64,000 nt of DNA from NCBI RefSeq assembly GCF_002906575.1, contig NZ_CP026309.1, positions 1,302,001 to 1,366,000 on the forward strand, in the 5' to 3' direction. This document shows positions 18,588-46,386 of this stretch, in pieces. Under the pieces are notes generated by a model. The model ran no database searches. It had not been told where the DNA came from and was given only the letters and a program-made list of their open reading frames with translations. Position 1 is the stretch's first letter, and each line of letters opens with the position of its first letter. The stretch comes from Salinigranum rubrum. GTDB lineage: Archaea; Halobacteriota; Halobacteria; Halobacteriales; Haloferacaceae. The translations under genes and the position numbers were made by a program.

Positions 18588-18912
18588 GCGTCGTTGGCTA
18601 ACAGCCGGGACAGTTCCCTTCGTGCGGCGTCGCCCCGGACAACCGCTGCCCGCCGCACGTCCGTAGTCAGGTCACCGTTCGGGGCAGGGTGGCCGCGGCT
18701 TCGGATAAGAGGGTTCGGTGACCAGGTGACGTTTGCGGCCGGGTTCTGTGGTCCGGTGTCGATAACGGGAGAGATACTCACCCACCGAAGCGACTGCGTC
18801 GCTTCGAGCCTTCACTCGTTTCTCTCGTGAAGACCTCGCGTGCAGTCGCGGCCGGAGCCGCGACCGTCGCGCCCCCGCACGACGGCCGCGCAGACGTTTC
18901 GAGCGTACCGAC
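18588..18912. other. 325-bp gene-free gap with a double-hairpin element
   Basis: I see no supportable coding sequence here. The notable content is the 54-nt structured repeat listed separately at 18787-18840. Confidence 0.5.
18787..18840. repeat. 54-nt double-hairpin intergenic repeat, copy 1
   Basis: Hairpin 1 is GAAGCGACTGCGTCGCTTC (18787-18805). It is followed by GAGC and hairpin 2, CTTCAC (18810-18815) pairing with GTGAAG (18827-18832), then ACCTCGCG. A second copy at 27795-27848 keeps every spacing and shows compensatory changes in both stems. This suggests a conserved RNA or DNA structure. Confidence 0.6.
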
Positions 18913-19941
18913 TCAGTGTCCCCAGCGCCGCTTCGATTCGGGGTCCTCGTACCGGGCGTTTTCGATTCGCTCGAACTGAGTCGTCGAAAGCGAGATGTCG
19001 CACGCGCCGACGTTCTCGTCCAGTTGGTCGACGGTCCGCGCGCCCACAATCGGGACGCAGGTGAACGCCTCCTGTTCCATGAGCCACCGGAGTGCGACCT
19101 GGGCAGGGGTCGCATCGAGGTCGTCAGCGACCTCTCGAATCGCGTCGAGGACGTGCCAGCCGCGCTCGGAGAGGTAGTAGTCCGAGAACGACTCGTAAAT
19201 CGTGGCCCGCGAGCCGTCGGGCGCCTCCACCTTCGTGGGGTCGTCGGGGTCCGCGCGCTCGTACTTCCCCGTCAGGAACCCGCCGGCGAGCGGCGAGTAC
19301 GGGCAGACGGCGAGGTCCTGGTCGGCGCAGACGTCGAGGTAGTCCGCGACGTCGTCGCGGTAGGCCGCGTGAAACAGCGGTTGGGTGACCTCGAAGCGCT
19401 CCCAGTCGTGCTGGGTGCTCCTCCCGAGGGCTTTCATCAGCTTCCAGCCGGCCATCGTCGACGCGCCGAGGTAGTTCACCTTCCCCTCGTCGACGAGGCG
19501 CGTCAGGGTGGCGAGCGTCTCGTCGATTGGCGTCTCGTCGTCCCAGCGGTGGATGTAGTAGACGTCGAGGTAGTCGGTGCCGAGCCGTTCCAGCGTCCCC
19601 TCGATCTGTCGTCGGATGTGCGTCCGCGACAGCCCCGAGCCGTTGGGGTTCGACCCGTCGAAGCCGAAGTACACCTTCGACGCGAGGACGTACTGCTCGC
19701 GGTCGCGGCCGGCGAGCCAGTCGCCGATCCACGTTTCGCTCGTTCCGTTGGGGTCGCCGTAGACGTTCGCGGTGTCGATGAACGTCCCGCCGTGTTCGGC
19801 GAACCGGTCGAGGAGTTCGTGTGCCTCGTCGCGCGTCGTCTCCGGGCCGTCGGGCGAGTCGCGGCCGAACCGCCACGTCCCGAAGCAGAGCTCCGACACC
19901 TTCGTGCCAGTAGAGCCGAGCCGTCTGTAGTCCATGCTCAT
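18913..19941 (-). CDS. Aldo/keto reductase
   Basis: A 342-residue NADPH-dependent oxidoreductase of the AKR superfamily (voltage-gated potassium channel beta-subunit / YajO type). The catalytic tetrad is visible: Asp and Tyr in FIDTANVYGDP, Lys in VLASKVYFG and His in YYIHRWDD. C-terminal cofactor-binding elements include SPLAGGFLTGKY and VPIVGARTVDQL. The substrate cannot be told from sequence. I chose the start MSMDYRRLG at 19941 because the family begins right there. It is divergent from the Gfo/Idh dehydrogenase gene, so the two may share a promoter region. Confidence 0.9.
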   Translation of the reverse strand: MSMDYRRLGSTGTKVSELCFGTWRFGRDSPDGPETTRDEAHELLDRFAEHGGTFIDTANVYGDPNGTSETWIGDWLAGRDREQYVLASKVYFGFDGSNPNGSGLSRTHIRRQIEGTLERLGTDYLDVYYIHRWDDETPIDETLATLTRLVDEGKVNYLGASTMAGWKLMKALGRSTQHDWERFEVTQPLFHAAYRDDVADYLDVCADQDLAVCPYSPLAGGFLTGKYERADPDDPTKVEAPDGSRATIYESFSDYYLSERGWHVLDAIREVADDLDATPAQVALRWLMEQEAFTCVPIVGARTVDQLDENVGACDISLSTTQFERIENARYEDPESKRRWGH

Positions 19942-20053
19942 ACGTGTCGGTTGTCCGAGAGTCCACAAAACCCTCGGGGTTGCGGCTGTCACGGCCGGAG
20001 TGGCAGACTGCCCCGACCCACGCGCTTATCGGGCTTCCCGCTCGCACCCCGGT

Positions 20054-21085
20054 ATGCACCACGCCGCCTGTCTCGGCCTCGGCGACCTCGGCCGTCTCGA
20101 AGCACGTGTCCTCGATTCGCTCGACGGAGTTCGCCTCGTCGGCGGAGCCGACCCCTCCCCCGACGCTCGCGACCGGTTCGAGAGCGAACTTCACCGCCCC
20201 GCGTACGAGACGCTCGACGACCTGCTCACGTCCGAGGACGTCGACCTCGTCACCATCGTCACGCCGCACACCCTCCACTACGACCAGGCCCGCGAGTGTC
20301 TCTCCCGCGACGTCCACGTCCACATCGAGAAGCCGATGGTGACGGAGCGCTCTCACGCGGACGACCTCATCGCGCGGGCCGACGCGCACGGCCTCGTCCT
20401 CGCGGTCGGTTACCAGCGCCACTTCGACCCGCGCTTCCGGGAGATTCGACGCCTCGTCGACGACGGACGCATCGGGCGACCGCACATGGTCGTCGGCCAC
20501 CTCGAACAGGAGTGGATTCGCTGGACGCAACACCAGTGGCGGTCGACCCCCGACCTGTCCGGCGGGGGCCAACTGTACGACTCGGGGTCGCACCTGCTCG
20601 ACGTCCTCTGCTGGACGCTTCGGGCGGAACCCACCACGGTCACGGCGACGGTCGACCGCCGCGGGCACGACGTCGACGTCAACAGCGCGCTCACGATGAC
20701 CCTCGAACGCCGCGAGTCGGCCGTCCGGACGCGGCAGCCGAACCCGGCCTCCATCACCGCGAGCGTCGGCGTCTCCGGCGACGGCACCTCCGTCCCCGAC
20801 CCCGGCGAATCGCTGCGCATCTGGGGAACCGATGGGACGATTTCGTTCGACGGCGACACCATCACCGTGCGCGAGGCGGGGATGACCTACGAGACCACTC
20901 CGTCCGTCCCCGATTTCGAGGAACTCACCCGCCGCAAACTCGGGAACGTCGTCGACGCCATCGACGGCGAGGCCGAACTGGAGATTCCGGCGACCGACGG
21001 CCGACGCGTCGTCGCCCTCACCGAGGCGGCCTACGAGGCGGCCGAGCGTGGCGAGCGCGTGTCGGTGCCGGGGCCCGAAAAGTGA
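20054..21085 (+). CDS. Gfo/Idh/MocA-family oxidoreductase
   Basis: A 343-residue NAD(P)-dependent sugar or inositol dehydrogenase-like protein. The Rossmann motif is GLGDLGRLE near the N-terminus, and the family hallmark EKPMVTE supplies the catalytic Lys. The YDSGSHLLDVLCW region carries the Asp/His typical of the active site. The substrate is unknown. Divergent transcription with the aldo/keto reductase suggests related redox work on a polyol or sugar, which is inference. Confidence 0.9.
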   Translation: MHHAACLGLGDLGRLEARVLDSLDGVRLVGGADPSPDARDRFESELHRPAYETLDDLLTSEDVDLVTIVTPHTLHYDQARECLSRDVHVHIEKPMVTERSHADDLIARADAHGLVLAVGYQRHFDPRFREIRRLVDDGRIGRPHMVVGHLEQEWIRWTQHQWRSTPDLSGGGQLYDSGSHLLDVLCWTLRAEPTTVTATVDRRGHDVDVNSALTMTLERRESAVRTRQPNPASITASVGVSGDGTSVPDPGESLRIWGTDGTISFDGDTITVREAGMTYETTPSVPDFEELTRRKLGNVVDAIDGEAELEIPATDGRRVVALTEAAYEAAERGERVSVPGPEK

Positions 21086-21202
21086 CGTGACGGCGAGCCC
21101 TCCCGGGCGGTGTCTCTCCGCCGAACCCGCTCGGTTGCTTAAATAACCACCTCGCACGTGAGGCAGTATCGGCTCCCGTTTCGACGCCCAACACACGCTC
21201 AC

Positions 21203-21790
21203 ATGACACCGACACGACTGGCGTTCGGGGTCGGCCTGCTGTCGGCCGCCGGCGTGTACGTGCTGGTTCTGGGAACGCTGTCGGCCGACTACGACTGGTG
21301 GCCGCCCGGCGACAGGACGCCCGCGTACTACTGGCACTGGACGCTCGTCGCGCTCTTCGACGTGGCCCTCGTGGCTACCGCCGTCCTCGACTGGGGCGCG
21401 TGGGGACTGGCTCGTCCGGTGACGCTCGTGGGCGGAGCAACCCTCACGCTTCTCGGCACCGCCCTGTTCGCGTGGGGCGCACGGACGATGCGTTCGGACG
21501 AGACGATGGGCGTGACCGGTGACCTCTACACCGACGGTCCGTACGCCTACACCCGAAACCCACAGTACCTCGGGATGACCGTCGGCGTGCCCGGGTTCGC
21601 CCTGCTCGCCGATTCGTCGCTCGTGATGGCGCTCGCGGCCGTCCACGTCGGGTGGGTCCTGCTCTTGCCCCGTGCCGAAGAACCGCACCTGCGGGCGGAG
21701 TTCGGCGAGGCGTACGACCGGTACGCGGCACGGGTCCCGCGGTTCGTCGGTCTCCGCACCGTTCGACGAGTGGTGTCGAGCGACGCCTGA
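21203..21790 (+). CDS. Membrane methyltransferase of the PEMT/ICMT type
   Basis: A 195-residue protein with about five membrane helices. The C-terminal half matches the isoprenylcysteine carboxyl methyltransferase / phospholipid methyltransferase family. It has GDLYTDGPYAYTRNPQYLGM (the R-N/H-P-x-Y motif) and the closing pattern EEPHLRAEFGEAYDRYAARV with the conserved Glu, Phe-Gly and Tyr. Members methylate lipids or prenylated cysteines with SAM; the target here is unknown. I chose MTPTRLAFG at 21203 as the start. Confidence 0.8.
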   Translation: MTPTRLAFGVGLLSAAGVYVLVLGTLSADYDWWPPGDRTPAYYWHWTLVALFDVALVATAVLDWGAWGLARPVTLVGGATLTLLGTALFAWGARTMRSDETMGVTGDLYTDGPYAYTRNPQYLGMTVGVPGFALLADSSLVMALAAVHVGWVLLLPRAEEPHLRAEFGEAYDRYAARVPRFVGLRTVRRVVSSDA

Positions 21791-21831
21791 GTCGGGGGCG
21801 TCCGTCCTCGTTCGAAGCTCTTCCGCGAGCA

Positions 21832-21885
21832 GACGACGGTCAGAGAGTGACGACGACAGTCAGAGAGTGACGACGACAGTCAGAG
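21832..21885. repeat. 20-bp tandem repeat, 2.7 copies
   Basis: The unit GACGACAGTCAGAGAGTGAC is repeated head to tail, the first copy with one change (GACGACGGTC). It lies in the 210-bp gap between the methyltransferase and the PAP2 gene. It is probably a slippage product. Confidence 0.75.
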
Positions 21886-22000
21886 GAGCACGACCACCTC
21901 ACGCCGAACAGGTATCCGCCCCTGAATGCACGCGTGTTCGGACTGACTGGCGAGGCTGACTCCACAAGGTTGTTTTTCGCCCAGCCCCTATCTCCGGGGG

Positions 22001-22987
22001 ATGAACAGACGGAACTGGGCTGCGGTCGCGGCCTCTACCGCAGTCGTGCTTCTCCTCGCCGTCCTTTCGGTTCTGGGCCCCGACATCTCCCTCGCCGACC
22101 GAAGCACCGAGTACTTCGAGCCCCTGTCCCCACAGGCCGGAATCGTCCTCCTCGTCGCCGGAATCGTCACGCAGTTCGGCGACCCGTGGTTCCTGCTGCT
22201 CGTCGCGGCGTTCATCTACCTGGCCGAGAGCGAACGGACGGGCGTTCGGGACTCCCGTGACGGAGCGTTCGTTCTCGGCGTCACGTTCGCGGCGTTCTCC
22301 TTCATCGACCTCCTCAAGAACGTCTTCGTCGGTCCCCGACCCCCCGGCGCGGGGACCGTCGAGATTCCGATGTGGCTCCCGACCGCCCTGGGAGGAGTCT
22401 TTCAGAGCATCACGACCGGGTCCGGCTACGCGTTCCCGAGCGGTCACGCGCTCGGGACGACCGCTGTCTTCGCCGCCATCGCGTACAAACTCGACCTCGG
22501 CGAGCGACGGGTCCGATGGGCGGTCGCGGGACTCGGCGTGGTCCTCGTCGCCGGGTCGCGAGTCGTCCTCGGCGTACACTTTCTCGTCGACATCCTCGTC
22601 GGCTGTGTCGCCGGTCTGTGCCTGTTCGCGGTCGCGACGACCGTCGGAAGTCGACGACCCTCCCGCGTCTTCGCCCTCGGCGTCGGTCTCGGCGTCCTGG
22701 CCGTGTTGGCGAGCATGGGCTCTCCCGAAGTCGTCTGGAAGGCCGGTCAGTGGCTCGGGGCCTCACTGGGTGCCGGAGTCGCGTGGCATCGACTCCGCCC
22801 GACGTCTATGCTCACGTTTCAGGAGGCCGTCGTCGCGGGCGTCCCGATCGCGGTCGCCTGGATCACCATCTACCTGACGTCGCCCCCGCTCGTCGTGACA
22901 GTCCTTGCGACGGCGGTCGCAGCGGGCGTGACGGTCGCCGCCCCGACACTGATCAACTCGGGTTCGACGTTCCCGAGGCCGATCTGA
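22001..22987 (+). CDS. PAP2-family membrane phosphatase
   Basis: A 328-residue membrane phosphatase with about nine helices. The three PAP2 motifs are present in order: KNVFVGPRP (K-x6-R-P), FPSGHALG (PSGH) and SRVVLGVHFLVD (S-R-x5-H-x3-D). They face the outer side of the membrane. Family members dephosphorylate lipid phosphates such as undecaprenyl or prenyl pyrophosphate and phosphatidate. Here it may recycle the dolichol-type carrier, but that is inference. The C-terminal 100 residues add hydrophobic helices beyond the PAP2 core. Confidence 0.88.
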   Translation: MNRRNWAAVAASTAVVLLLAVLSVLGPDISLADRSTEYFEPLSPQAGIVLLVAGIVTQFGDPWFLLLVAAFIYLAESERTGVRDSRDGAFVLGVTFAAFSFIDLLKNVFVGPRPPGAGTVEIPMWLPTALGGVFQSITTGSGYAFPSGHALGTTAVFAAIAYKLDLGERRVRWAVAGLGVVLVAGSRVVLGVHFLVDILVGCVAGLCLFAVATTVGSRRPSRVFALGVGLGVLAVLASMGSPEVVWKAGQWLGASLGAGVAWHRLRPTSMLTFQEAVVAGVPIAVAWITIYLTSPPLVVTVLATAVAAGVTVAAPTLINSGSTFPRPI

Positions 22988-23191
22988 GACGGACGTCGGA
23001 CGGGGGTTCGGGACCCGAACGCGTCGCTCTGTCGAACCACGTCGAGTCGAGGCGTCGTCTCGGAGACGCGACCGCCCGCACATCAGCCGACCGGTTCCAC
23101 CCGGTCGCTGTCGTCGGTCCCGTGCTCACCGCGCCCGCGGGGAGCGACAGAAAAGCCAACGCTTACCCCCGAACCGCTGTCAGCGTACGGT

Positions 23192-24223
23192 ATGGACGAG
23201 GTACTGGTCGCTGAGAACGTCAGAAAGTCCTACGGCGACGTTCAGGCGCTTCGTGGGGTTTCCCTCTCCGTCGGGGCCGGCGAGGTGTTCGGTCTCATCG
23301 GCCCGAACGGGGCGGGCAAGACCACGCTCGTCCGGGGGCTCACCGGCACGACGAGCGTGGAAGGGACGGTCCGCGTCCTCGGAAAGCCACCCGAAGCCGT
23401 CGACGCGAACCGGCTCGGCCTCCTGCCGCAGTCTTTTTCCCCCGCGGCACGGCTCACGCCCCGGGAACTGCTCTCGCACTACGCCGGCCTCTACGACGCG
23501 GCGCGCGACCCCGACGTCGTCCTCGACGAGGTCGGACTCGCCGATACGGCCGACACCTGGTACGAGCACCTCTCGGGCGGCCAACAGCGCCGGACGTGCG
23601 TCGGTGCCGCCCTCGTGAACGACCCGGACGTGCTCTTCCTCGACGAGCCAACGACCGGAATCGACCCGGCCGGCCGGCGCGCGGTCTGGCGGCTCGTCGA
23701 CCGCCTCACGGCCGGCGGGACGACGGTCTTTCTGACCAGCCACTCGATGCAGGAGGTGGCTCGCCTCGCCGACCGCGTCGGACTCGTCCGCGGCGGCGAA
23801 CTCGTCGCGGTCGGCTCCCCCGACGAACTGATACGCGAACACGGCGGGGAGAGCACGCTCGCCGTCGAGACCGAGTCGGCACGGGAGGCGACCGACGCGC
23901 TCGACGGGAACTACGCGGTCTCGGTCGTCTCCGACGGACTCGTCGTCAGCGGGGTCGACCCGCGCGACATCGGCGACGTGGCGACGACGCTCGACGAGGC
24001 AGGCGTCGACTACGGCTCGTTGGCGTGGTCGGAGCCGTCGCTCGAAGACGTCTACCTGTCGCTCACCGGCGAGTCGTTCGAGGGGCAGGAGCGAGGCGTC
24101 ACGCCGCCGGCGTCCGCGGGCGAGAGCGACGACGGGTCGGTCGCCGTCGGTGACGGTGCTGGTGCTGGTACGGGTGCGAGTGCGGGCACGGAGACGAGTG
24201 CGGGGCCGGAGGAGGGACGATGA
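23192..24223 (+). CDS. ABC-2-type transporter ATP-binding protein
   Basis: A 343-residue ATPase of a DrrA/CcmA-like export system. Walker A is GPNGAGKTT, signature LSGGQQRR, Walker B VLFLDEPTT, and the switch His lies in FLTSHSM. The Q-loop is present as LLPQSF. After the nucleotide-binding domain there is a regulatory C-terminal region and a Gly/Ala/Ser/Thr-rich tail (GAGAGTGASAGTETSAGPEE). It overlaps the permease start by four bases, giving a two-gene operon. The exported substrate is not readable. Confidence 0.92.
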   Translation: MDEVLVAENVRKSYGDVQALRGVSLSVGAGEVFGLIGPNGAGKTTLVRGLTGTTSVEGTVRVLGKPPEAVDANRLGLLPQSFSPAARLTPRELLSHYAGLYDAARDPDVVLDEVGLADTADTWYEHLSGGQQRRTCVGAALVNDPDVLFLDEPTTGIDPAGRRAVWRLVDRLTAGGTTVFLTSHSMQEVARLADRVGLVRGGELVAVGSPDELIREHGGESTLAVETESAREATDALDGNYAVSVVSDGLVVSGVDPRDIGDVATTLDEAGVDYGSLAWSEPSLEDVYLSLTGESFEGQERGVTPPASAGESDDGSVAVGDGAGAGTGASAGTETSAGPEEGR

Positions 24224-24975
24224 GCCGCTTCGGTCGCGTCTCCGCCGAGTTCACCGCCGCCTGGTACTCCTTCCTCCGCCGTCGGACCGCGGTGTTCTTC
24301 ACGTTCTTCTTCCCGGTCATCATCGTCCTCATCTTCGGCGTGCTGGTGCAGACCCAGCCCACCGGCGGCGGCCTGTTCGCGGAGCCTCCCGGCTACTACG
24401 TCCCCGGCTACCTGGCCGTCGTCGTGCTGTTCACGCCGCTGTCGCGCGTCGGCTCGACCGTCGCACGGCATCGGGAGGGAAACCGCTTCCAGAAGCTGGC
24501 GACGACGCCGCTGTCGCGCGGAGAGTGGCTCCTCGCACACACCCTCGTGAACGTGGTCGTCATCGGCCTCGCGGCGCTCGTGCTCCTCGTGCTCGTGGTT
24601 CTCCTGACCGGGGCGTCGGTTCCGCTCGCGCCCGCGAGCCTCGCGCTCGTCCCGTTCGTCGCCCTCGGGGTGGCGCTGTTCTGCGGACTCGGCTCCATCA
24701 TCGGGCGGCTCTCGAGTTCCCAAGACGGCGTCATCGCCGCGAGCAACGCCGTCGCCCTCCCGCTTTTGTTCCTCTCGGAGACGTTCGTCACGACCGACCT
24801 CCTCCCGGCGTGGTTCCGGCCGGTGACCGCACTGTCGCCGCTGACGTACTTCGCACGCGGGGTGCGTGCGCTCACGTTCTCCGGTGGCGACTGGGCGGGT
24901 CCCCTCGGGATGCTCGCGCTCCTCGCAGTCGTCGTCTTCGCCGTGGGCGCCGTCGCGGTGCCGTGGACCGAATAG
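24220..24975 (+). CDS. ABC-2-type transporter permease
   Basis: A 251-residue permease with six predicted helices, the first being VFFTFFFPVIIVLIFGVLV. The ABC-2 pattern is clear, including a large first loop and the LPLLFLSETFVTTDLLPAWF region near the C-terminus. Together with the overlapping ATPase gene it forms a complete exporter. Drug, lipid or polysaccharide export are all possible. Confidence 0.9.
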   Translation: MSRFGRVSAEFTAAWYSFLRRRTAVFFTFFFPVIIVLIFGVLVQTQPTGGGLFAEPPGYYVPGYLAVVVLFTPLSRVGSTVARHREGNRFQKLATTPLSRGEWLLAHTLVNVVVIGLAALVLLVLVVLLTGASVPLAPASLALVPFVALGVALFCGLGSIIGRLSSSQDGVIAASNAVALPLLFLSETFVTTDLLPAWFRPVTALSPLTYFARGVRALTFSGGDWAGPLGMLALLAVVVFAVGAVAVPWTE

Positions 24976-24985
24976 GAAAAGAGCG

Positions 24986-26362
24986 TCAGCCGTCACCCTG
25001 CGGCGTCGGCGTCGCCGTCGCGGGTTCCTCGATGCCGAGCCACGAGAGCTTGAGTTGCCCGGGCCACTGCTGGTCCTGGCTCCGGTCGCGGTGTGGCCGC
25101 GGTGAGACGCCCGTCGCGATGACGAACTCGCCGACCTGGTGGAGGTTCGCGTAGAGGTTCGGCCCGTCGTAGTCGTAGTACACGCGCGTCCACTCCCGGT
25201 TGGCCATGCTCGTCGTTCCGTCCTCACCGAGCGTCGTCGAGAGGAGCGTCTCCACCGCCGCCGCGGCCGCCTCCTCGTTCTCGAACCGCTGGAGGAAGAC
25301 GGGGACGCCCGCGAACTGCTCGTCGTTGTCGGTGCCGGTGACGAGCCTGTTCGCCACGACGTACGCGTGGTCGACCCGCCCCTCGCGGGCGACCGTCGCG
25401 TCGAACACGTTCGTGTACGCCGGTTCGTAGTCGCCGACGCGTTCGCGCCACGCCTGCGTGTCTTCGAGGATGTCGACCGCCCCGTCGGAGAACGCGTAGA
25501 TGTACCCGTTCGGGCGCTCGTTCTCGTGGTCGTAGATGTCGTGACCGGCGTCGTAGACGTGTGCGTGTGCGTAGACGCGCTGCCCGGTCGCGAACTCGTG
25601 TGCGTGCGGACGAACCGAGTCGCTCGCGCGGTCGCTGTACTCGTCGGAGAACGTCTGTGTCGTGAAGTTGTCCCCCGGTGGGTAGCTCACGCCGAAGATC
25701 GCCTGCTCGCCGCCGCCCGACATGAGGAGGCTGTGGAGCGGGTCTTCGATGGGGTGTGCCGAGAGGTTCTGGTCGAGGTACGACTCGTTCGTCACGCGGG
25801 TGTAGAACACGTCGAGTCGGTTCAGCGCGTCCTCTTGGGCCGCCGTGTCGTCCTGCTCGACCGCCGCCTCGAAGTTGCGGACGTAGACGTTGTTCCCGCG
25901 TCGAAGGGCCGCGTCGAGTTCGAAGTGCGGCGCGAGGTCCTCCGTCACGAACTCTGCGAGTTCGGTCGTCTTCGAGCGGAGTTCCTCCACGTCGCCCATC
26001 GTGAGGGTGTTCACCTCTTTGAGCTTCGCGACGGTTTCGGCGACCGGTTTGACCGCGAGCAGATAGCGACGCCTCGCGCGCTGGTACTCGGTTCCGAACC
26101 AGCGGATCTCGTCCATCACGTTTCGGGTCCGAACGAGGAACTCGGATTCGGGTTCGGGCGTGGGCGTCGGCGTCTCCGTCGGGGTCGGCGTCTCCGTCGC
26201 CTCGTTCGAGTCTCCGCCACCCTCGCTGTCGCCGCCGCCGCTCTCGCTGGCACCGTCGTCGTCGCTGCCGCCGCCCGATCCGAGCATTCCGGTACATCCC
26301 GCCAGCAGCGGGAACGAGAGCGACGACGTGAGAGCGAGCACCCGTCGTCGGGAGTGGTCCAT
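24986..26362 (-). CDS. Tat-exported lipoprotein of unknown function
   Basis: A 458-residue protein with a twin-arginine-type signal and lipobox (MDHSRRRVLALTSSLSFPLL, then AGC with the lipid-modified Cys at residue 23). A Gly/Ser/Asp linker and a Thr/Pro tract (TPTPTETPTPTPEP) follow. The rest is a soluble domain on the outer face with no motif I know; it begins with a long helical region (YQRARRRYLLAVKPVAETVA). Haloarchaea encode many such orphan lipoproteins. The convergent ABC exporter ends 10 bp away on the other strand. Confidence 0.75.
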   Translation of the reverse strand: MDHSRRRVLALTSSLSFPLLAGCTGMLGSGGGSDDDGASESGGGDSEGGGDSNEATETPTPTETPTPTPEPESEFLVRTRNVMDEIRWFGTEYQRARRRYLLAVKPVAETVAKLKEVNTLTMGDVEELRSKTTELAEFVTEDLAPHFELDAALRRGNNVYVRNFEAAVEQDDTAAQEDALNRLDVFYTRVTNESYLDQNLSAHPIEDPLHSLLMSGGGEQAIFGVSYPPGDNFTTQTFSDEYSDRASDSVRPHAHEFATGQRVYAHAHVYDAGHDIYDHENERPNGYIYAFSDGAVDILEDTQAWRERVGDYEPAYTNVFDATVAREGRVDHAYVVANRLVTGTDNDEQFAGVPVFLQRFENEEAAAAAVETLLSTTLGEDGTTSMANREWTRVYYDYDGPNLYANLHQVGEFVIATGVSPRPHRDRSQDQQWPGQLKLSWLGIEEPATATPTPQGDG

Positions 26363-26455
26363 GTAGGGCCCGTTCCGGGGCCGAGTTCTTGAGCGTTCGC
26401 GTCGGGATATCAGTCTTGAGTCTCAGAACCTCCGCGTTCTCTCCGAAGTGCGGGA

Positions 26456-27493
26456 TCAGTTCACGGGGATCCGTCCGTCGGGGTCGGGTCGCTCGCCGAG
26501 GACGACTTCGAGCGTCTGCGGTGTCCCGCCGCGGACGATGTCGACGCCGACCGGCTCGTGCGGCCGCGTCTCAGTGATGAGATACCGCATCAGCTCCTCG
26601 TGGGTGTGTATCTCGTGGCCGTTGATGCCGACGATGACGTCGCCGCCGACGGGGACGCGCTGGCCGTGGAGCGTCCGGGTCTCGGTCGACCGCCGGAGCC
26701 TGTCGCCCGCCGTCGGCCCCGTGGCGACGTCGACGACGAGGACGCCCCGGGGCTCGTCGAGGTCGTTCGCCGCCGCGATGGTCGGCGTCACGTCGAGCGT
26801 CCGGGTCCGGAGGTACGAGTGGCGGTACCGTCCCTCCTCGACGAGCGACGGGACGACGCGCGAGACGATGACCGGCGAGACGGCGAAGCCGATGTTGTCG
26901 CCCTGCCGCGCGCGGTTGACGCCGACGACTTCGTAGGCCGGTTCGAGGGCGTCGTCCTCCGCTCCGACGACGAGCGCGACGAGCGGCCCGCCCGAGTTGC
27001 CCGGATTGATGGGCGCGTCCGTCTGGACGACGTCGGGGATGGCGAAGCCGCTCGACGTCCGCATCGAGCGGTTCGACCCGCTGACGATGCCCGCGGAGAT
27101 GGAGCCGTCGAGACCGAGCGGATTGCCGAGCGCGGCGACGGGCCGGCCCGGTTGTGGGTTCTCCGTGGCGACCGGGAGGGGCCGCGCCGTCGTCGGCAGG
27201 TCCGGCACCCGGACGACGGCGAGGTCGGTGTAGGAGTCGCGTCCGACGACGCGCCCGGTCCGCCATTGGCCGTCGGCGAACCGGACCTCGACGTCAGTCG
27301 CGTCGGTGACGACGTGGTCGTTCGTCACGACGTAGCCGTCTTGCTCCCCGCTCTCGCTCGTCGCTTCGTCCGCGAAGCCGTAGACGAATCCGGAGCCGGC
27401 GCCCCGTGCGGGGGCACCGCGTCCGACGTACACCGACACCACCGAGGGGATGGTGTCGCGGTACAACCGTTCGTAGTCGATGTCGGCGTGCAT
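26456..27493 (-). CDS. HtrA/DegP-like trypsin-type serine protease with PDZ domain
   Basis: A 345-residue trypsin-fold protease: His60 in TNDHVV, Asp90 in YTDLAVV and Ser167 in GNSGGP form the triad. It is followed by one C-terminal PDZ domain (about residues 235-335, GDVIVGINGHEIHTHEELMR). HtrA proteases handle damaged proteins. I see no signal peptide with the start MHADIDYERLY at 27493, so it is probably cytoplasmic; the long open frame upstream lacks a signal too. The upstream gap holds a 15-bp palindrome. Confidence 0.88.
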   Translation of the reverse strand: MHADIDYERLYRDTIPSVVSVYVGRGAPARGAGSGFVYGFADEATSESGEQDGYVVTNDHVVTDATDVEVRFADGQWRTGRVVGRDSYTDLAVVRVPDLPTTARPLPVATENPQPGRPVAALGNPLGLDGSISAGIVSGSNRSMRTSSGFAIPDVVQTDAPINPGNSGGPLVALVVGAEDDALEPAYEVVGVNRARQGDNIGFAVSPVIVSRVVPSLVEEGRYRHSYLRTRTLDVTPTIAAANDLDEPRGVLVVDVATGPTAGDRLRRSTETRTLHGQRVPVGGDVIVGINGHEIHTHEELMRYLITETRPHEPVGVDIVRGGTPQTLEVVLGERPDPDGRIPVN

Positions 27494-27551
27494 GTGGTAC
27501 GCGCGCCCGCCGCCGCTGTGGCCGGGTTTTGGCCCGCACACGGCGTGGGCG

Positions 27552-27566
27552 CTTACCTCAGGTAAG
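27552..27566. promoter_or_regulatory. 15-bp palindrome upstream of the HtrA-like gene
   Basis: CTTACCT-C-AGGTAAG is a perfect 7-1-7 inverted repeat about 60 bp before the protease start. It lies just upstream of a minus-strand CCAAAACCC that could serve as a weak TATA/BRE region. It is a candidate operator. Confidence 0.4.
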
Positions 27567-27794
27567 TGCCGAGCGTATATGACGGTGTCGTGCGGTAACA
27601 CGGGGCGCGAATCAGCGTGGACCGACGTGGTTCGGTCGTCTCGTCTCCTGTAATGGTTCGATAGGCGGGTGTGGACTCGCCGATGCACCGACCGACACGG
27701 TCCAGAAGGCCGCGCAGTACACGGACGCGGCGTGACCGCAGGCCTCACCTCTCCCCACCCGGTGCGGTCGGAACGGGACCCGACCGCGGCCCCC

Positions 27795-27848
27795 GGAGCG
27801 ACTGTGCCGCTCCGAGCCTTCGTTCAGTTCCTCCACGAAGACCTCGCG
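27795..27848. repeat. 54-nt double-hairpin intergenic repeat, copy 2
   Basis: Hairpin 1 is GGAGCG (27795-27800) with CGCTCC (27808-27813). Hairpin 2 is CTTCGT (27818-27823) with ACGAAG (27835-27840), then ACCTCGCG. All offsets equal those of the copy at 18787. Stem changes are compensatory (A:T to G:C in stem 1; CAC/GTG to CGT/ACG in stem 2). Confidence 0.6.
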
Positions 27849-28062
27849 CGTTCGCTCGCTCCTTGCAGTCACTCGCTCTCACGCGCCGACCGCCATGACA
27901 CGGTGCGGTGGCGCGTGACGTCATGCGGTCTCCGTGCTCTCCGGCACATCTGGTGAACCTGCCTCCCATGGAACCCCCCTCCCGTGAACCCGCACGGCAC
28001 TGCTGACCGCTCGGCGCATCCTCGTACCGGATCCTCCCACGTTAACCGCTCACTCGCCGGGC

Positions 28063-29984: not shown

Positions 29985-30079
29985 GGTTCGTGTTGGTTCT
30001 CCAATATGAAAAGTTGCGATGGTGGCTGCGAGTCGGTGAAAACGGTCGAGACGCGCCGCTCGGGAGTCGGGTTCGCAGA

Positions 30080-30103
30080 ATGCGCCGGCCGGGATATCGA
30101 ACC
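30080..30103 (-). repeat. Decayed duplicate of the tRNA-Gly 3' end
   Basis: ATGCGCCGGCCGGGATATCG followed by AACC repeats the tRNA's acceptor and T-arm end (30202-30224), with one inserted A. It lies about 120 bp away in the same orientation. A second T-arm-like piece, GGGTTC-A-GAATCCC, lies near 30149-30162 on the plus strand. Such a scar is what a departed integrative element leaves. Confidence 0.6.
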
Positions 30104-30202
30104 GAAGCCAGACGTGCTCGCTCGTGCCTCGCTGCGCGCGACTGGCAGGGTTCAGAATCCCGTCGAGGCGCATACACGCCTCTCACTACGTTCGAGTCGG
30201 TA

Positions 30203-30273
30203 TGCGCCGGCCGGGATTCGAACCCGGGCCATGAGCTTGGAAGGCTCAGGTCCTACCACTAGACCACCGGCGC
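30203..30273 (-). tRNA. tRNA-Gly (anticodon TCC)
   Basis: Minus-strand cloverleaf of 71 nt without an encoded CCA. The acceptor stem GCGCCGG pairs with CCGGCGC. The D-arm is GTCTAGTGGTAGGAC, the anticodon arm TGAGC-CTTCCAA-GCTCA places TCC at the anticodon, and the T-arm is CCCGGGTTCGAATCCCGG. No intron is visible. Confidence 0.97.
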
Positions 30274-30683
30274 GCTCGTTCGCTGCGCTCACTCGCGCGC
30301 CGAGCCTCCACCTCCTTTCGTTCGGTGGAGACACCGGCGCTCACACGAGTGGAAGCCAGCGTCGTTCTCTCGTATCCGACCCCGGAATAAGGACCTTACG
30401 TTACTCGACAGCGTGGCGTGTGACGGCGCGGGCTCCGTGGCCGCGCCTCACGCGCGAGGGATGAGCACCGAAGCGCCGCAGGCGCGAGGAGCGCAATCGG
30501 CTGGGGGGTCTTCGCGAGTGCAACGAGCGAACGGCTCGAAGCGGCTCTGCCGCTTCGGTGGACGAGGCATCACCACCCTAGCGAGTCGCTTCTCCGGGAC
30601 GCTGTGTTCACGGGCGACACCGTCTCGTCTCGCCTCCGAACCCGCGACACCACCTGAAGACGACGGGCTGTCTCTGAGTCCAG
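30274..30683. other. 410-bp gene-free gap
   Basis: No supportable gene. It contains a stem CTCCAC/GTGGAG (30306-30330) in the same GAGC...AC frame as hairpin 2 of the 54-nt repeat, and a modular repeat at 30425-30583. Confidence 0.5.
30425..30583. repeat. Modular intergenic repeat, copy 1
   Basis: In order: hairpin GGCGCGG/CCGCGCC (30425-30447), motif GCGCGAGGGATGAG (30452), variable segment, motif AATCGGCTGGGG (30495, exactly 43 bp on), an inserted hairpin GAAGCGGCTCTGCCGCTTC (30538-30556), and end motif TCACCACCCTAGCG (30570-30583). The copy at 42343-42446 has the same order. Confidence 0.65.
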
Positions 30684-42747: not shown

Positions 42748-44520
42748 CTACGCTAGCCGGTACACCCGCGCCTCCCACGGCCGCAGCGTCTCTCGTTCGA
42801 CGCGCGTCGAGTCGACGTCGTAGTTCGAGACGATGACCTCCTCTGCGTCTCCGGCGACGCTCGCGGGCGGCTCGAACTCCGTCTCGGTGTCCCCGAAGTT
42901 CAGCACCGTCAGCGTCTGCTCCTCGATCGTTCCGTCCTCGTCTGTCACCGTCCGCGTGTAGACCCACAGGCGGTCGTGCTCGGGGAGAAGGAGGTCGTAC
43001 GAACCGTACACGAGGACGTCCTCCTCGTGACGCAGCGAGATGAGGTCGCGGTAGTAGTGCCAGACGGAGTCGGGGTCCGCTCGCTCGCTCTCGACGTTCA
43101 CCTCCTCGTGATTGGGGTTGACCGGAATCCACGGCTCGCCGTCGGTGAATCCCGCGCTGAGGCTCGAATCCCACTGCATCGGCGTCCGCGCGTTGTCCCT
43201 GGACCGATACCGGACGAGGTCGAGGAGTTCGTCGTCGCTGGCGAAGCGTCCCCTCCGTTCGAGCGTCTCGACGTTCCTGAGCGTGTCGACGTCGCGGACC
43301 TCTCCGAGCGAGGTGAAGGGGTAGTTCGTCATCCCGATTTCCTCGCCCTGGTAGATGAACGGCGTGCCCTGTAGCGTGTACAGAAGCGTCGCGAGTAACA
43401 TCGCCGACTCCCGCCGGTAGCGCTCGCTGCCGAAGCGCGAGACCATCCGCGGTTCGTCGTGGTTGTTGAGGTACAGCGAGTTCCACCCCTCGCCGTCGAG
43501 CCCCTCCTGCCAGCGCGTGATGGTCGCTTTCAGCTCTCGGACGCTCCAGTCGGCCTTCGACCAGCGGCTCCCGTCGGGGCCGAAGTCGAGGCGCATGTGG
43601 TCGAAGTTGAACGCCATGCTCATGCCGTCGCCGTCCTCGCCGAGGAACTGTCTCGCCTCGTCGACGTCCATCTCGACCATCTCGCCGACGGTCATCGCGT
43701 CGTCGGGGACGGCTTCGTCGTGGATCTGTCGGACGTACTCGTGGACGCGCGGGCCGTTGACGAACTCGTCCGCGCCGCGGACGATGGCCGTCTCGTCCTC
43801 GCCGTCCGGGAGTTCCTCGGGCTTGGAGATGAGGTTGATGACGTCCATCCGAAAGCCGTCGATGCCCCTGTCGAACCAGAACTCCATCATGTCGAACACC
43901 TCCTCTCGCACCCGGGGGTTCGCCCAGTTTAGGTCCGGCTGTCGCTCGTCGAACACGTGAAGGTACCACTGCCCGCGTTCCTCGTCGAACGTCCACGCCG
44001 ACCCGCCGAAGAACGACTCCCAATCGTTCGGTGGGCGCTCGCGGACGTCTCGCGGCAGACCGTACTCGGCGGGGTCGTAGCGACCCTCCTCGTACTCGGC
44101 CTCGGAAACGGGTTCGCCGTCGCGCCAGAAGTAGAAGTCCTCGTACCCTTCCTCTTCGGCCCGCGACCGCCGGAACCACGCGTGTTCGTCGGAGGTGTGG
44201 TTCACCACGAGGTCCATGATGAGCCGTATTCCACGGTCGTGCAGTCCCTCCAGCAACGCCTCCCAGTCGGCCATCGTCCCGAACGTGTCGAGAATCGCCC
44301 GGTAGTCGGAGACGTCGTAGCCGTTGTCGACGTTGGGAGACTCGTAGACGGGGCAGAGCCAGACGACGTCGACGCCCAGTGCGTCGAGGTAGTCGAGTTT
44401 CTCGACGACTCCCTGCAGGTCGCCGATACCGTCGCCGTTGCTGTCGTTGAAGCTCCGAGGGTAGATCTGGTAGACGACGGATTCCTTCCACCACGCTCGG
44501 TCGTCGTCAGGGACAGTCAT
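42748..44520 (-). CDS. GH13 alpha-glucosidase / oligo-1,6-glucosidase, copy 1
   Basis: A 590-residue glycoside hydrolase family 13 enzyme (GH13_31-like: alpha-glucosidase, oligo-1,6-glucosidase or trehalose-6-phosphate hydrolase). The TIM-barrel active site is complete: nucleophile Asp226 (GFRMDVINL), acid/base Glu280 (TVGEM) and Asp355 (LNNHDEPR). The calcium-type loop NDSNGDGIGDLQG lies near residue 25. A C-terminal beta domain closes the protein. No signal peptide, so it works on imported sugars. It lies in tandem with a close paralog upstream. Confidence 0.9.
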   Translation of the reverse strand: MTVPDDDRAWWKESVVYQIYPRSFNDSNGDGIGDLQGVVEKLDYLDALGVDVVWLCPVYESPNVDNGYDVSDYRAILDTFGTMADWEALLEGLHDRGIRLIMDLVVNHTSDEHAWFRRSRAEEEGYEDFYFWRDGEPVSEAEYEEGRYDPAEYGLPRDVRERPPNDWESFFGGSAWTFDEERGQWYLHVFDERQPDLNWANPRVREEVFDMMEFWFDRGIDGFRMDVINLISKPEELPDGEDETAIVRGADEFVNGPRVHEYVRQIHDEAVPDDAMTVGEMVEMDVDEARQFLGEDGDGMSMAFNFDHMRLDFGPDGSRWSKADWSVRELKATITRWQEGLDGEGWNSLYLNNHDEPRMVSRFGSERYRRESAMLLATLLYTLQGTPFIYQGEEIGMTNYPFTSLGEVRDVDTLRNVETLERRGRFASDDELLDLVRYRSRDNARTPMQWDSSLSAGFTDGEPWIPVNPNHEEVNVESERADPDSVWHYYRDLISLRHEEDVLVYGSYDLLLPEHDRLWVYTRTVTDEDGTIEEQTLTVLNFGDTETEFEPPASVAGDAEEVIVSNYDVDSTRVERETLRPWEARVYRLA

Positions 44521-44610: not shown

Positions 44611-46386
44611 TCAGCGCTCGTGGTGGTAGACTCGCGCCTCCCACGGTCGGAGGTGGAGGTCGCCCGCTGCGAGTTCCCCCTCGGCGTCGGCGCCCGCGTC
44701 ACCGTCGCCGCCGTCTCCGTAGTTCCCGATGAGGAGCGTGGCGTGGTCGCTCGTGACCACCTCCGAGAGACCGACGGCGACCTCGTCGTCGGAGAAGTTC
44801 AGGGCGACCAGAAGCTGTTCGTCGCTCTCCTCACCCGTGAGCGTCCGGGTGTACACCCACACCGTGTCGTCGTCGGGGAACAGCGGGTCGTACTCGCCGT
44901 AGACGACGACGTCGTACTCACTGCGGAGGCTGATGAGGTCGCGGTAGTAGTGCCAGACGGAGTCGTCGTCGCGCCGTTCGGACTCGATGTTCACCTCCTC
45001 GTAATTGGGGTTGACCGGAATCCACGGCTCGCCGTCGGTGAACCCCGCGTTCGGATCGGACGACCACTGCACCGGCGTCCGCGCGTTGTCGCGGCTGTTC
45101 GCGCGGACCACCTCCTTCACCGCGTCGAACGACTCCACGTCGCCGTCCGCGATGGCGTTTCGAAGGGGGTTGAGCGTGTCCACGTCGCGGAACTCGTCGA
45201 GGGAGTCGAACGGGTAGTTCGTCATCCCCAGCTCCTCTCCCTGGTAGATGTACGGCGTCCCCCGAAGCGTGTGCAGGAGCGTCCCGAGGAGCTTCGCCGA
45301 CTCCCGGCGGTACTCGCCGTCGTTCCCGAACCGCGACACCATCCGCGGCTGGTCGTGGTTGTTGAGGTACAGCGAGTTCCACCCCACCTCCTCTAGACCT
45401 TCGTCCCAGCGGTTGAACACCGCCTTGAGATCCGAGAGCGCCCACTCGCCGCGCTCCCAGATGGCGTCGCCCCGGTCGAGCAGCATGTGCTCGAAGTGAA
45501 AGAGCATCGAGAGGCCGTCCTCGTCCGGGTCGAGGTAGCGACGCGCGTGCGCCATCGGCATCTCCGGCCCGAGCATCTCCCCCACCGTGAGATACTCGTC
45601 GTCGAGGACGCGCTCGCTCATCTCCGAGAGGAACTCGTGGATTCGCGGGCCGTTCGTCGATTGCGACATCGCACCGCCGAACGGATCCTCGGGGTCGTTC
45701 GGCAACCCGTCGGGCTTGGAGACGAGGTTGATGACGTCCATCCGGAAGCCGTCGATACCCTTGTCGAACCACCACTCCATCATGTCGAACACTTCGTCTC
45801 TGACCCGAGGGTTCTCCCAGTTGAGGTCCGGCTGCTTGACGTCGAAGAGGTGGAGATACCACTCCTCCCGCCCGTCGTCGTACGCCCACGCGGGGCCGCC
45901 GAAGAACGACTTCCAGGCGTTCGGTGGGGCCTCTCCCTCGGGTCCCTCCTTCGCCGACCACGACACCTCGTCGGCGTCGCGGCCCTCGCGCCACCAGTAG
46001 AAGTCCTCGTACCCCTCCTCTTCGACGCGCGACCTGACGAACCACTCGTGTTCGTCGGAGGTGTGGTTCACCACGAGGTCCATGATGAGTTTGATGTCAC
46101 GGGCGTGGAGTTCGTCGAGCAACGTTTCCCAGTCGGCCATCGTCCCGAACTCGTCCATGATGGCCCGGTAGTCGCGGATGTCGTACCCGTTGTCCGCGTT
46201 GGGCGAGTCGTACACGGGGCAGAGCCAGACGACGTCGACGCCGAGGTCGTCGAGGTACTCGACCTTCTCGACGATGCCTGGAATATCGCCGATGCCGTCC
46301 CCGTCCGAGTCGTTGAAGCTCCGTGGGTATATCTGGTAGACGACCGCCTCCTTCCACCACCGCCGCTCGATGTCGCGTTCGCTCAT
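44611..46386 (-). CDS. GH13 alpha-glucosidase / oligo-1,6-glucosidase, copy 2
   Basis: A 591-residue paralog of the gene downstream, with near-identical motifs (WWKEAVVYQIYPRSFNDSDG; GFRMDVINLVSKPDGLPND; TVGEM; LNNHDQPRMVSRFG). It differs in the loops around residues 130-170 and 230-290, so the two may have different chain-length preferences. No signal peptide. I chose the ATG at 46386. Tandem order on the same strand implies local duplication and perhaps shared control. Confidence 0.9.
   Translation of the reverse strand: MSERDIERRWWKEAVVYQIYPRSFNDSDGDGIGDIPGIVEKVEYLDDLGVDVVWLCPVYDSPNADNGYDIRDYRAIMDEFGTMADWETLLDELHARDIKLIMDLVVNHTSDEHEWFVRSRVEEEGYEDFYWWREGRDADEVSWSAKEGPEGEAPPNAWKSFFGGPAWAYDDGREEWYLHLFDVKQPDLNWENPRVRDEVFDMMEWWFDKGIDGFRMDVINLVSKPDGLPNDPEDPFGGAMSQSTNGPRIHEFLSEMSERVLDDEYLTVGEMLGPEMPMAHARRYLDPDEDGLSMLFHFEHMLLDRGDAIWERGEWALSDLKAVFNRWDEGLEEVGWNSLYLNNHDQPRMVSRFGNDGEYRRESAKLLGTLLHTLRGTPYIYQGEELGMTNYPFDSLDEFRDVDTLNPLRNAIADGDVESFDAVKEVVRANSRDNARTPVQWSSDPNAGFTDGEPWIPVNPNYEEVNIESERRDDDSVWHYYRDLISLRSEYDVVVYGEYDPLFPDDDTVWVYTRTLTGEESDEQLLVALNFSDDEVAVGLSEVVTSDHATLLIGNYGDGGDGDAGADAEGELAAGDLHLRPWEARVYHHER

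Follow-up and report, generated by a model that had tools for sequence, protein, structure and literature searches.

The two matching hairpin pairs found in a 64-kb stretch of Salinigranum rubrum DNA (the window) raised the question of whether they form a structured RNA, as an earlier note had proposed, or an element of another kind. A regulatory RNA is less likely than a tiny mobile element, which is the best reading because the repeat has spread between genes across about nine tenths of the haloarchaea sampled. Both pairs proved real, each beginning one base before the position first reported (at 18786 and 27794), and the constant spacing and the paired stem changes between them had been read correctly. 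Copy 1 consists of CGAAGCGACTGCGTCGCTTCG-AGCC-TTCACTCGTTTCTCTCGTGAA-GACCTCGCG and copy 2 of CGGAGCGACTGTGCCGCTCCG-AGCC-TTCGTTCAGTTCCTCCACGAA-GACCTCGCG. Codon-usage gene calling left both gaps free of genes, as had been claimed; the adjoining KDPG aldolase is 90% identical to its S. salinum counterpart.

When the window was scanned with R3, a covariance model made solely from other genomes, four units were detected (Table 1). The stem previously noticed at 30302-30332 is present but is not an isolated one: it belongs, as hairpin 2, to a complete unit in which the loop of hairpin 1 is long. The fourth copy, on the other strand, had been overlooked. Rfam matched only tRNA in the window and nothing at 13 further loci, so that the double hairpin corresponded to no Rfam family, in agreement with the earlier note. 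Additionally, the window holds two adjoining alpha-amylase-family genes in similar orientation (42748-44520 and 44611-46386), with blocks of 79-84% DNA identity; judging from these blocks, the pair is a tandem duplication.

Table 1. Features of the double-hairpin repeat in the window. Strands of the units are those of the covariance model; hp, hairpin.
Feature	Position	Strand	Remarks
Double-hairpin unit, copy 1	18780-18844 (model span)	-	core 18786-18840; R3 E=7e-15
Copy 1 parts	hp1 18786-18806; AGCC 18807-18810; hp2 18811-18831; GACCTCGCG 18832-18840		
Foldback element bearing copy 2	27709-27935 (approximate extent)		second terminal repeat degenerate
Terminal inverted repeat, one end of this element	27709-27741	-	R2 model E=5e-8
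Double-hairpin unit, copy 2	27788-27852 (model span)	-	core 27794-27848; R3 E=3e-12
Copy 2 parts	hp1 27794-27814; AGCC; hp2 27819-27839; GACCTCGCG 27840-27848		
Central hairpin CACGCGCC...GGCGCGTG of the copy-2 element	27880-27917		recurs in other full-length elements
tRNA-Gly gene, target of third unit	30203-30273	-	Rfam tRNA, 71 bits
Third unit, at tRNA-Gly 5' end	30262-30343	-	insertion 30274-30340; R3 E=8e-6
9-bp direct repeats CACCGGCGC bounding third unit	30265-30273 and 30332-30340		
Fourth unit, joined to AATCGGCTGGGG arm	30498-30563	+	opposite orientation; R3 E=1e-12

The repeat proved to be a family of wide range. Searching the whole genome for the pattern yielded eight further clear copies, and R1, a covariance model of 65 positions, detected 57 copies in this genome at E<0.01, all intergenic, overlapping no called gene and located on the main chromosome. 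Contigs C2-C6 of the same assembly (0.72 Mb beyond the main chromosome) carried none of the 57, with a chance of about 1e-4. The search of haloarchaeal genomes that had been suggested returned copies throughout the class: at E<=1e-4, 219 of 242 genomes and 67 of 74 genera were positive with R3, the copy counts per genome being those among the best 21 scored candidates. In a phylum-wide draw, 21 of 24 haloarchaea were positive and none of 124 other genomes, a result that is supportive rather than a perfect control because base composition differs in those genomes. Copy number ranged from 0 to 57 between genomes, and the copies lie mostly between genes, occasionally inside them.

The units share the frame CACCG-[hp1]-CGAGCC-[hp2]-GA, constant outside the stems across genera, with a length of roughly 50-60 nt that is greater where the hp1 loop is long. 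A short motif precedes each hairpin, CACC ahead of hp1 and AGCC ahead of hp2, and hp1 itself is wholly different between genera (GAAGCGAC, GTCAGAGC, GGGAGAGC and others). Flank and joint vary together: CACCG was found with CGAGCC (n=47) and CTCCG with CGTGC (n=7), with one exception. For 7 T/T cases against 1 T/A this gave a Fisher p of 3e-7, uncorrected for relatedness; several of the T/T cases come from one genus, with at least three genera altogether.

In 69 distinct sequences, 96% of the stem cells were paired and double changes were observed in 16 of the 18 pairs. Double changes affected 287 cells, against 82 after shuffling. The score for covariation reached 0.63, where shuffling gave 0.22 and slid partners 0.12 at most; all these figures lean towards the structure because the alignments were fitted to it. 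An ungapped alignment of ten copies from this genome presented the same compensatory pattern on a smaller scale. Further copies with paired changes were found both here and across the class, clearly the opposite of what would have refuted the earlier note. Of the original claim the conserved, compensating, intergenic two-hairpin element stands, while its RNA nature found no support. By covariation alone, an RNA cannot be told from a DNA hairpin, nor from a palindrome that corrects its own arms. In quasi-palindrome correction one arm templates the other, which can also yield compensatory change.

Comparison of filled and empty sites revealed precise insertions at CRCCG sequences. In a gene for a beta-CASP/RMMBL metallo-beta-lactamase nuclease, an in-frame insertion of 51 nt (17 residues) was observed at loci L190 and L182, reading AAGCTCCACGGC[GTCTCC...GATTCGGC]GGGAC. 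The site is empty in L249, L257, L258, L259 and L261, where CACGGC runs uninterrupted into GGGAC or the equivalent, and a decayed version of the insertion is present in the congener G001. As the repeat flanking the insertion, L190 has CGGC and L182 has CGGT, altered on both sides together, which fits the expectation for a target duplication. The in-frame repeat occupies the identical beta-CASP position in L182, L190, L286 and L248, which belong to genera of two families; this suggests either that the site is a hot spot for insertion or that genes were transferred.

A second gene offers both states side by side. The Holliday junction resolvase gene hjc, named from its protein sequence (MSSNRKGDRRERELVNKL...), has its 5' end and the region upstream duplicated in tandem at L195 (1476-1700); the empty copy reads GGGGAC-CGCCGCGAACGGG and the filled one GGGGAC[CACCG-hp1-GGCC-hp2-GA]CGCCGCGAACGGG, an in-frame addition of 57 nt. 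Moreover, the third unit of the window is a 67-nt insertion between two CACCGGCGC repeats at the 5' end of tRNA-Gly. This polymorphic site is also filled in the congener G003 and empty in G001, where CACCGGCGC is followed directly by TCAC; the form in G002 differs and is shorter. Beside this gene, at about 30060-30190, lies a fragment resembling the tRNA-Gly 3' end (GCGCCGGCCGGGAT..TCGAACC), and G001 carries several such fragments in series, which resemble scars of integration or slippage.

At the two original sites no repeat was found in the congeners. The gap orthologous to site 1 is far shorter in G002 and G003, and that of site 2 lacks about 400 nt in G001 and G002; the exact junctions are blurred because the intergenic DNA of the congeners is too diverged. 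Direct repeats of CRCCG or longer accompany the gene and tRNA insertions and are not evident at most nested copies. Units in tandem with one common CACCG were observed at L055, L057 and L180.

In this genome the units are frequently nested in foldback elements of 134-460 nt with terminal inverted repeats of about 37 nt, which are present in these larger Salinigranum elements and absent from the 50-60-nt unit. From the ends inward, the order is GAGGCTGCGGTCCACCGCGCCCGTGTNCCGCGCGGTC (the terminal inverted repeats), CCCCAGCCGATT/AATCGGCTGGGG, CCCTCGCGCG/CGCGCGAGGG and a central CACGCGCCACCGC/GCGGTGGCGCGTG, and the side hairpins are exchangeable. The terminal-repeat model gave 142 matches, all chromosomal; the remaining replicons, 0.72 Mb in total, had none (p about 2e-10). 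Among the matches are 34 inward-facing pairs spanning 134-460 nt; no pair of 460-13,000 nt was found in this genome, and thus no autonomous copy is visible. The mean folding z of the elements was -6.4 on either strand, a rough figure from 15 shuffles each. The outer terminal repeats occur in this genus only, and inner arms like CCCCAGCCGATT also adjoin units in other genera.

The proposal of a small RNA or cis-regulatory element under selection on one strand draws on the strong compensatory change, on a near-invariant U.G pair of the model strand (64 of 69) and on the stronger folding of both window copies on that strand (z of about -2.5 versus -1.3 and -0.7). Such an RNA is nevertheless very unlikely: units in tandem gaps are oriented without preference relative to the genes (9:6), and divergent, convergent and tandem contexts were all found (25, 19 and 15 of 59 gaps). 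Insertions also lie in unrelated genes and at a tRNA, and orthologous sites in congeners are empty. One-sided A.C mispairs match G.U mispairs in the alignment rich in copies from this genome (29 versus 26). Overall, G.U is rare, at about 1.6% of cells, two constant wobble columns excluded. The tRNA stems given by Aragorn, a would-be control for G.U versus A.C, carry a bias in that their brackets mark permitted pairs only, and they were therefore kept out of the proof. The idea of a bidirectional terminator or 3' processing hairpin, which deserves hardly any credence, would suit GC-rich hairpins in gaps, 19 of the 59 gaps being convergent, as well as the T-run that follows 5 of 53 copies in other genera; one tested Haloferax volcanii hairpin terminated 59% of transcripts (PMC7237163). 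Against it, TTTT was found near either end in none of the 57 copies of this genome, whereas the Haloferax intergenic signal is a T stretch (PMC7237163), 25 of the 59 gaps are divergent, and some insertions lie within genes. At L191, L194 and L197, which represent a few other genera, TTTT comes immediately after the hairpins, so that terminators may have been recruited from some copies.

The evidence from strand, context and the lack of T-tracts thus speaks against both a terminator and an RNA of one strand. The results on orientation, context, mispairs and T-runs favour a role at the DNA level, which is compatible with the copies being transcribed. One such role would be a selected site of chromosomal architecture or protein binding, like BIME/gyrase sites, with dispersal as a by-product. 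The confinement of the copies to the chromosome in this genome and the enrichment of convergent and divergent over tandem gaps (44:15 against 36:39, p=0.002) agree with it. It is highly improbable all the same, as positions differ between congeners, copy number varies as widely as described above and no binding protein is known.

The double hairpin is instead, with high probability, a non-autonomous, REP/MITE-like mobile DNA hairpin repeat. The moving unit is the 50-60-nt hairpin pair, inserting beside a CRCCG pentamer and leaving CRCCG-type direct repeats at both sides. It spreads through haloarchaeal genomes, chiefly between genes, can stack in tandem via a common CACCG and serves as a module in the larger foldback elements with terminal inverted repeats. 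A transposase supplied in trans would recognise the hairpins as DNA, probably in single-stranded form, and the motifs ahead of them would play the part that guide and cleavage sequences have in REP/IS200-IS605 systems, where a tetranucleotide ahead of the hairpin helps to choose the cleavage site (PMC8266576, PMC5934647). By this analogy, the unit may be a substrate of single-strand transposition.

Several results were counted against a mobile repeat. The analysis turned up no enzyme that mobilises the repeat and dated no recent, nearly identical insertion of full length, and the outer terminal repeats are restricted to the genus. A freely moving element would not usually have its terminal repeats on the chromosome only. 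Among the top-scoring sequences of the class, G.U mispairs slightly exceeded A.C (17 versus 6), which the model's inherent preference for G.U may explain. Y1 transposase was rejected as the driver: its counts were uncorrelated with copy counts (rho=-0.06), and it is absent from genomes with 26 and 40 copies. Rather doubtfully, a class-wide single-strand DNA mobile system can be proposed, with a two-hairpin substrate of about 55 nt, a CRCCG target, co-varying target and joint, and a non-Y1 or domesticated transposase.

The repeat is real, class-wide, mobile and unnamed in the sources searched, namely Rfam and the open-access literature (ISfinder lying outside the scope), where only the Haloquadratum work on MITEs, PATEs and SMRs was found. 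It would account for much of the palindromic intergenic DNA of haloarchaeal genomes and offers for study a very small, precisely inserting archaeal unit, for which sites naturally filled or empty and in-frame insertions in proteins are at hand. It also cautions that compensatory change by itself is no proof of RNA.

The repeat works like REP/MITE repeats, yet it departs from the defining features of each named family. Like the bacterial REP/BIME repeats with TnpA-REP (PMC8266576), it has short hairpins that lie between genes and are grouped in tandem or as mosaics, with many intergenic copies of a 20-50-nt palindrome. A short conserved motif likewise precedes each hairpin, on which the choice of cleavage in REP is thought to depend (PMC8266576). 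Unlike them, it pairs two hairpins that face the same way, the motifs being CACC and AGCC where REP has GTAG, it is confined to haloarchaea, and it has no association with a Y1/TnpA-REP gene. The MITEs, PATEs and SMRs of Haloquadratum walsbyi are also transposase-free, small and numerous, with strain-specific insertions, and the SMR terminal repeats are unrelated to known transposons (PMC3119063). SMR-A, however, is about 110 bp long, has inverted terminal repeats and targets PATE palindromes (PMC3119063), whereas the present unit is shorter and lacks such repeats, a distinction drawn from the description of SMRs alone rather than from sequence comparison. The repeat differs from a MITE in that no autonomous transposon sharing the terminal repeats of the foldback elements was seen in this genome. 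Rickettsia palindromic elements are also found in frame in unrelated genes; they measure about 150 bp and are reported mostly within genes (PMC10969869), while the haloarchaeal unit is nearly all intergenic. Finally, the unit resembles the ends of IS200/IS605 elements (PMC5934647, PMC8266576) in its hairpin beside a short motif, its fixed short insertion sequence and the joint alteration of motif and flank, and differs from them in carrying no transposase and in having direct repeats on both sides.
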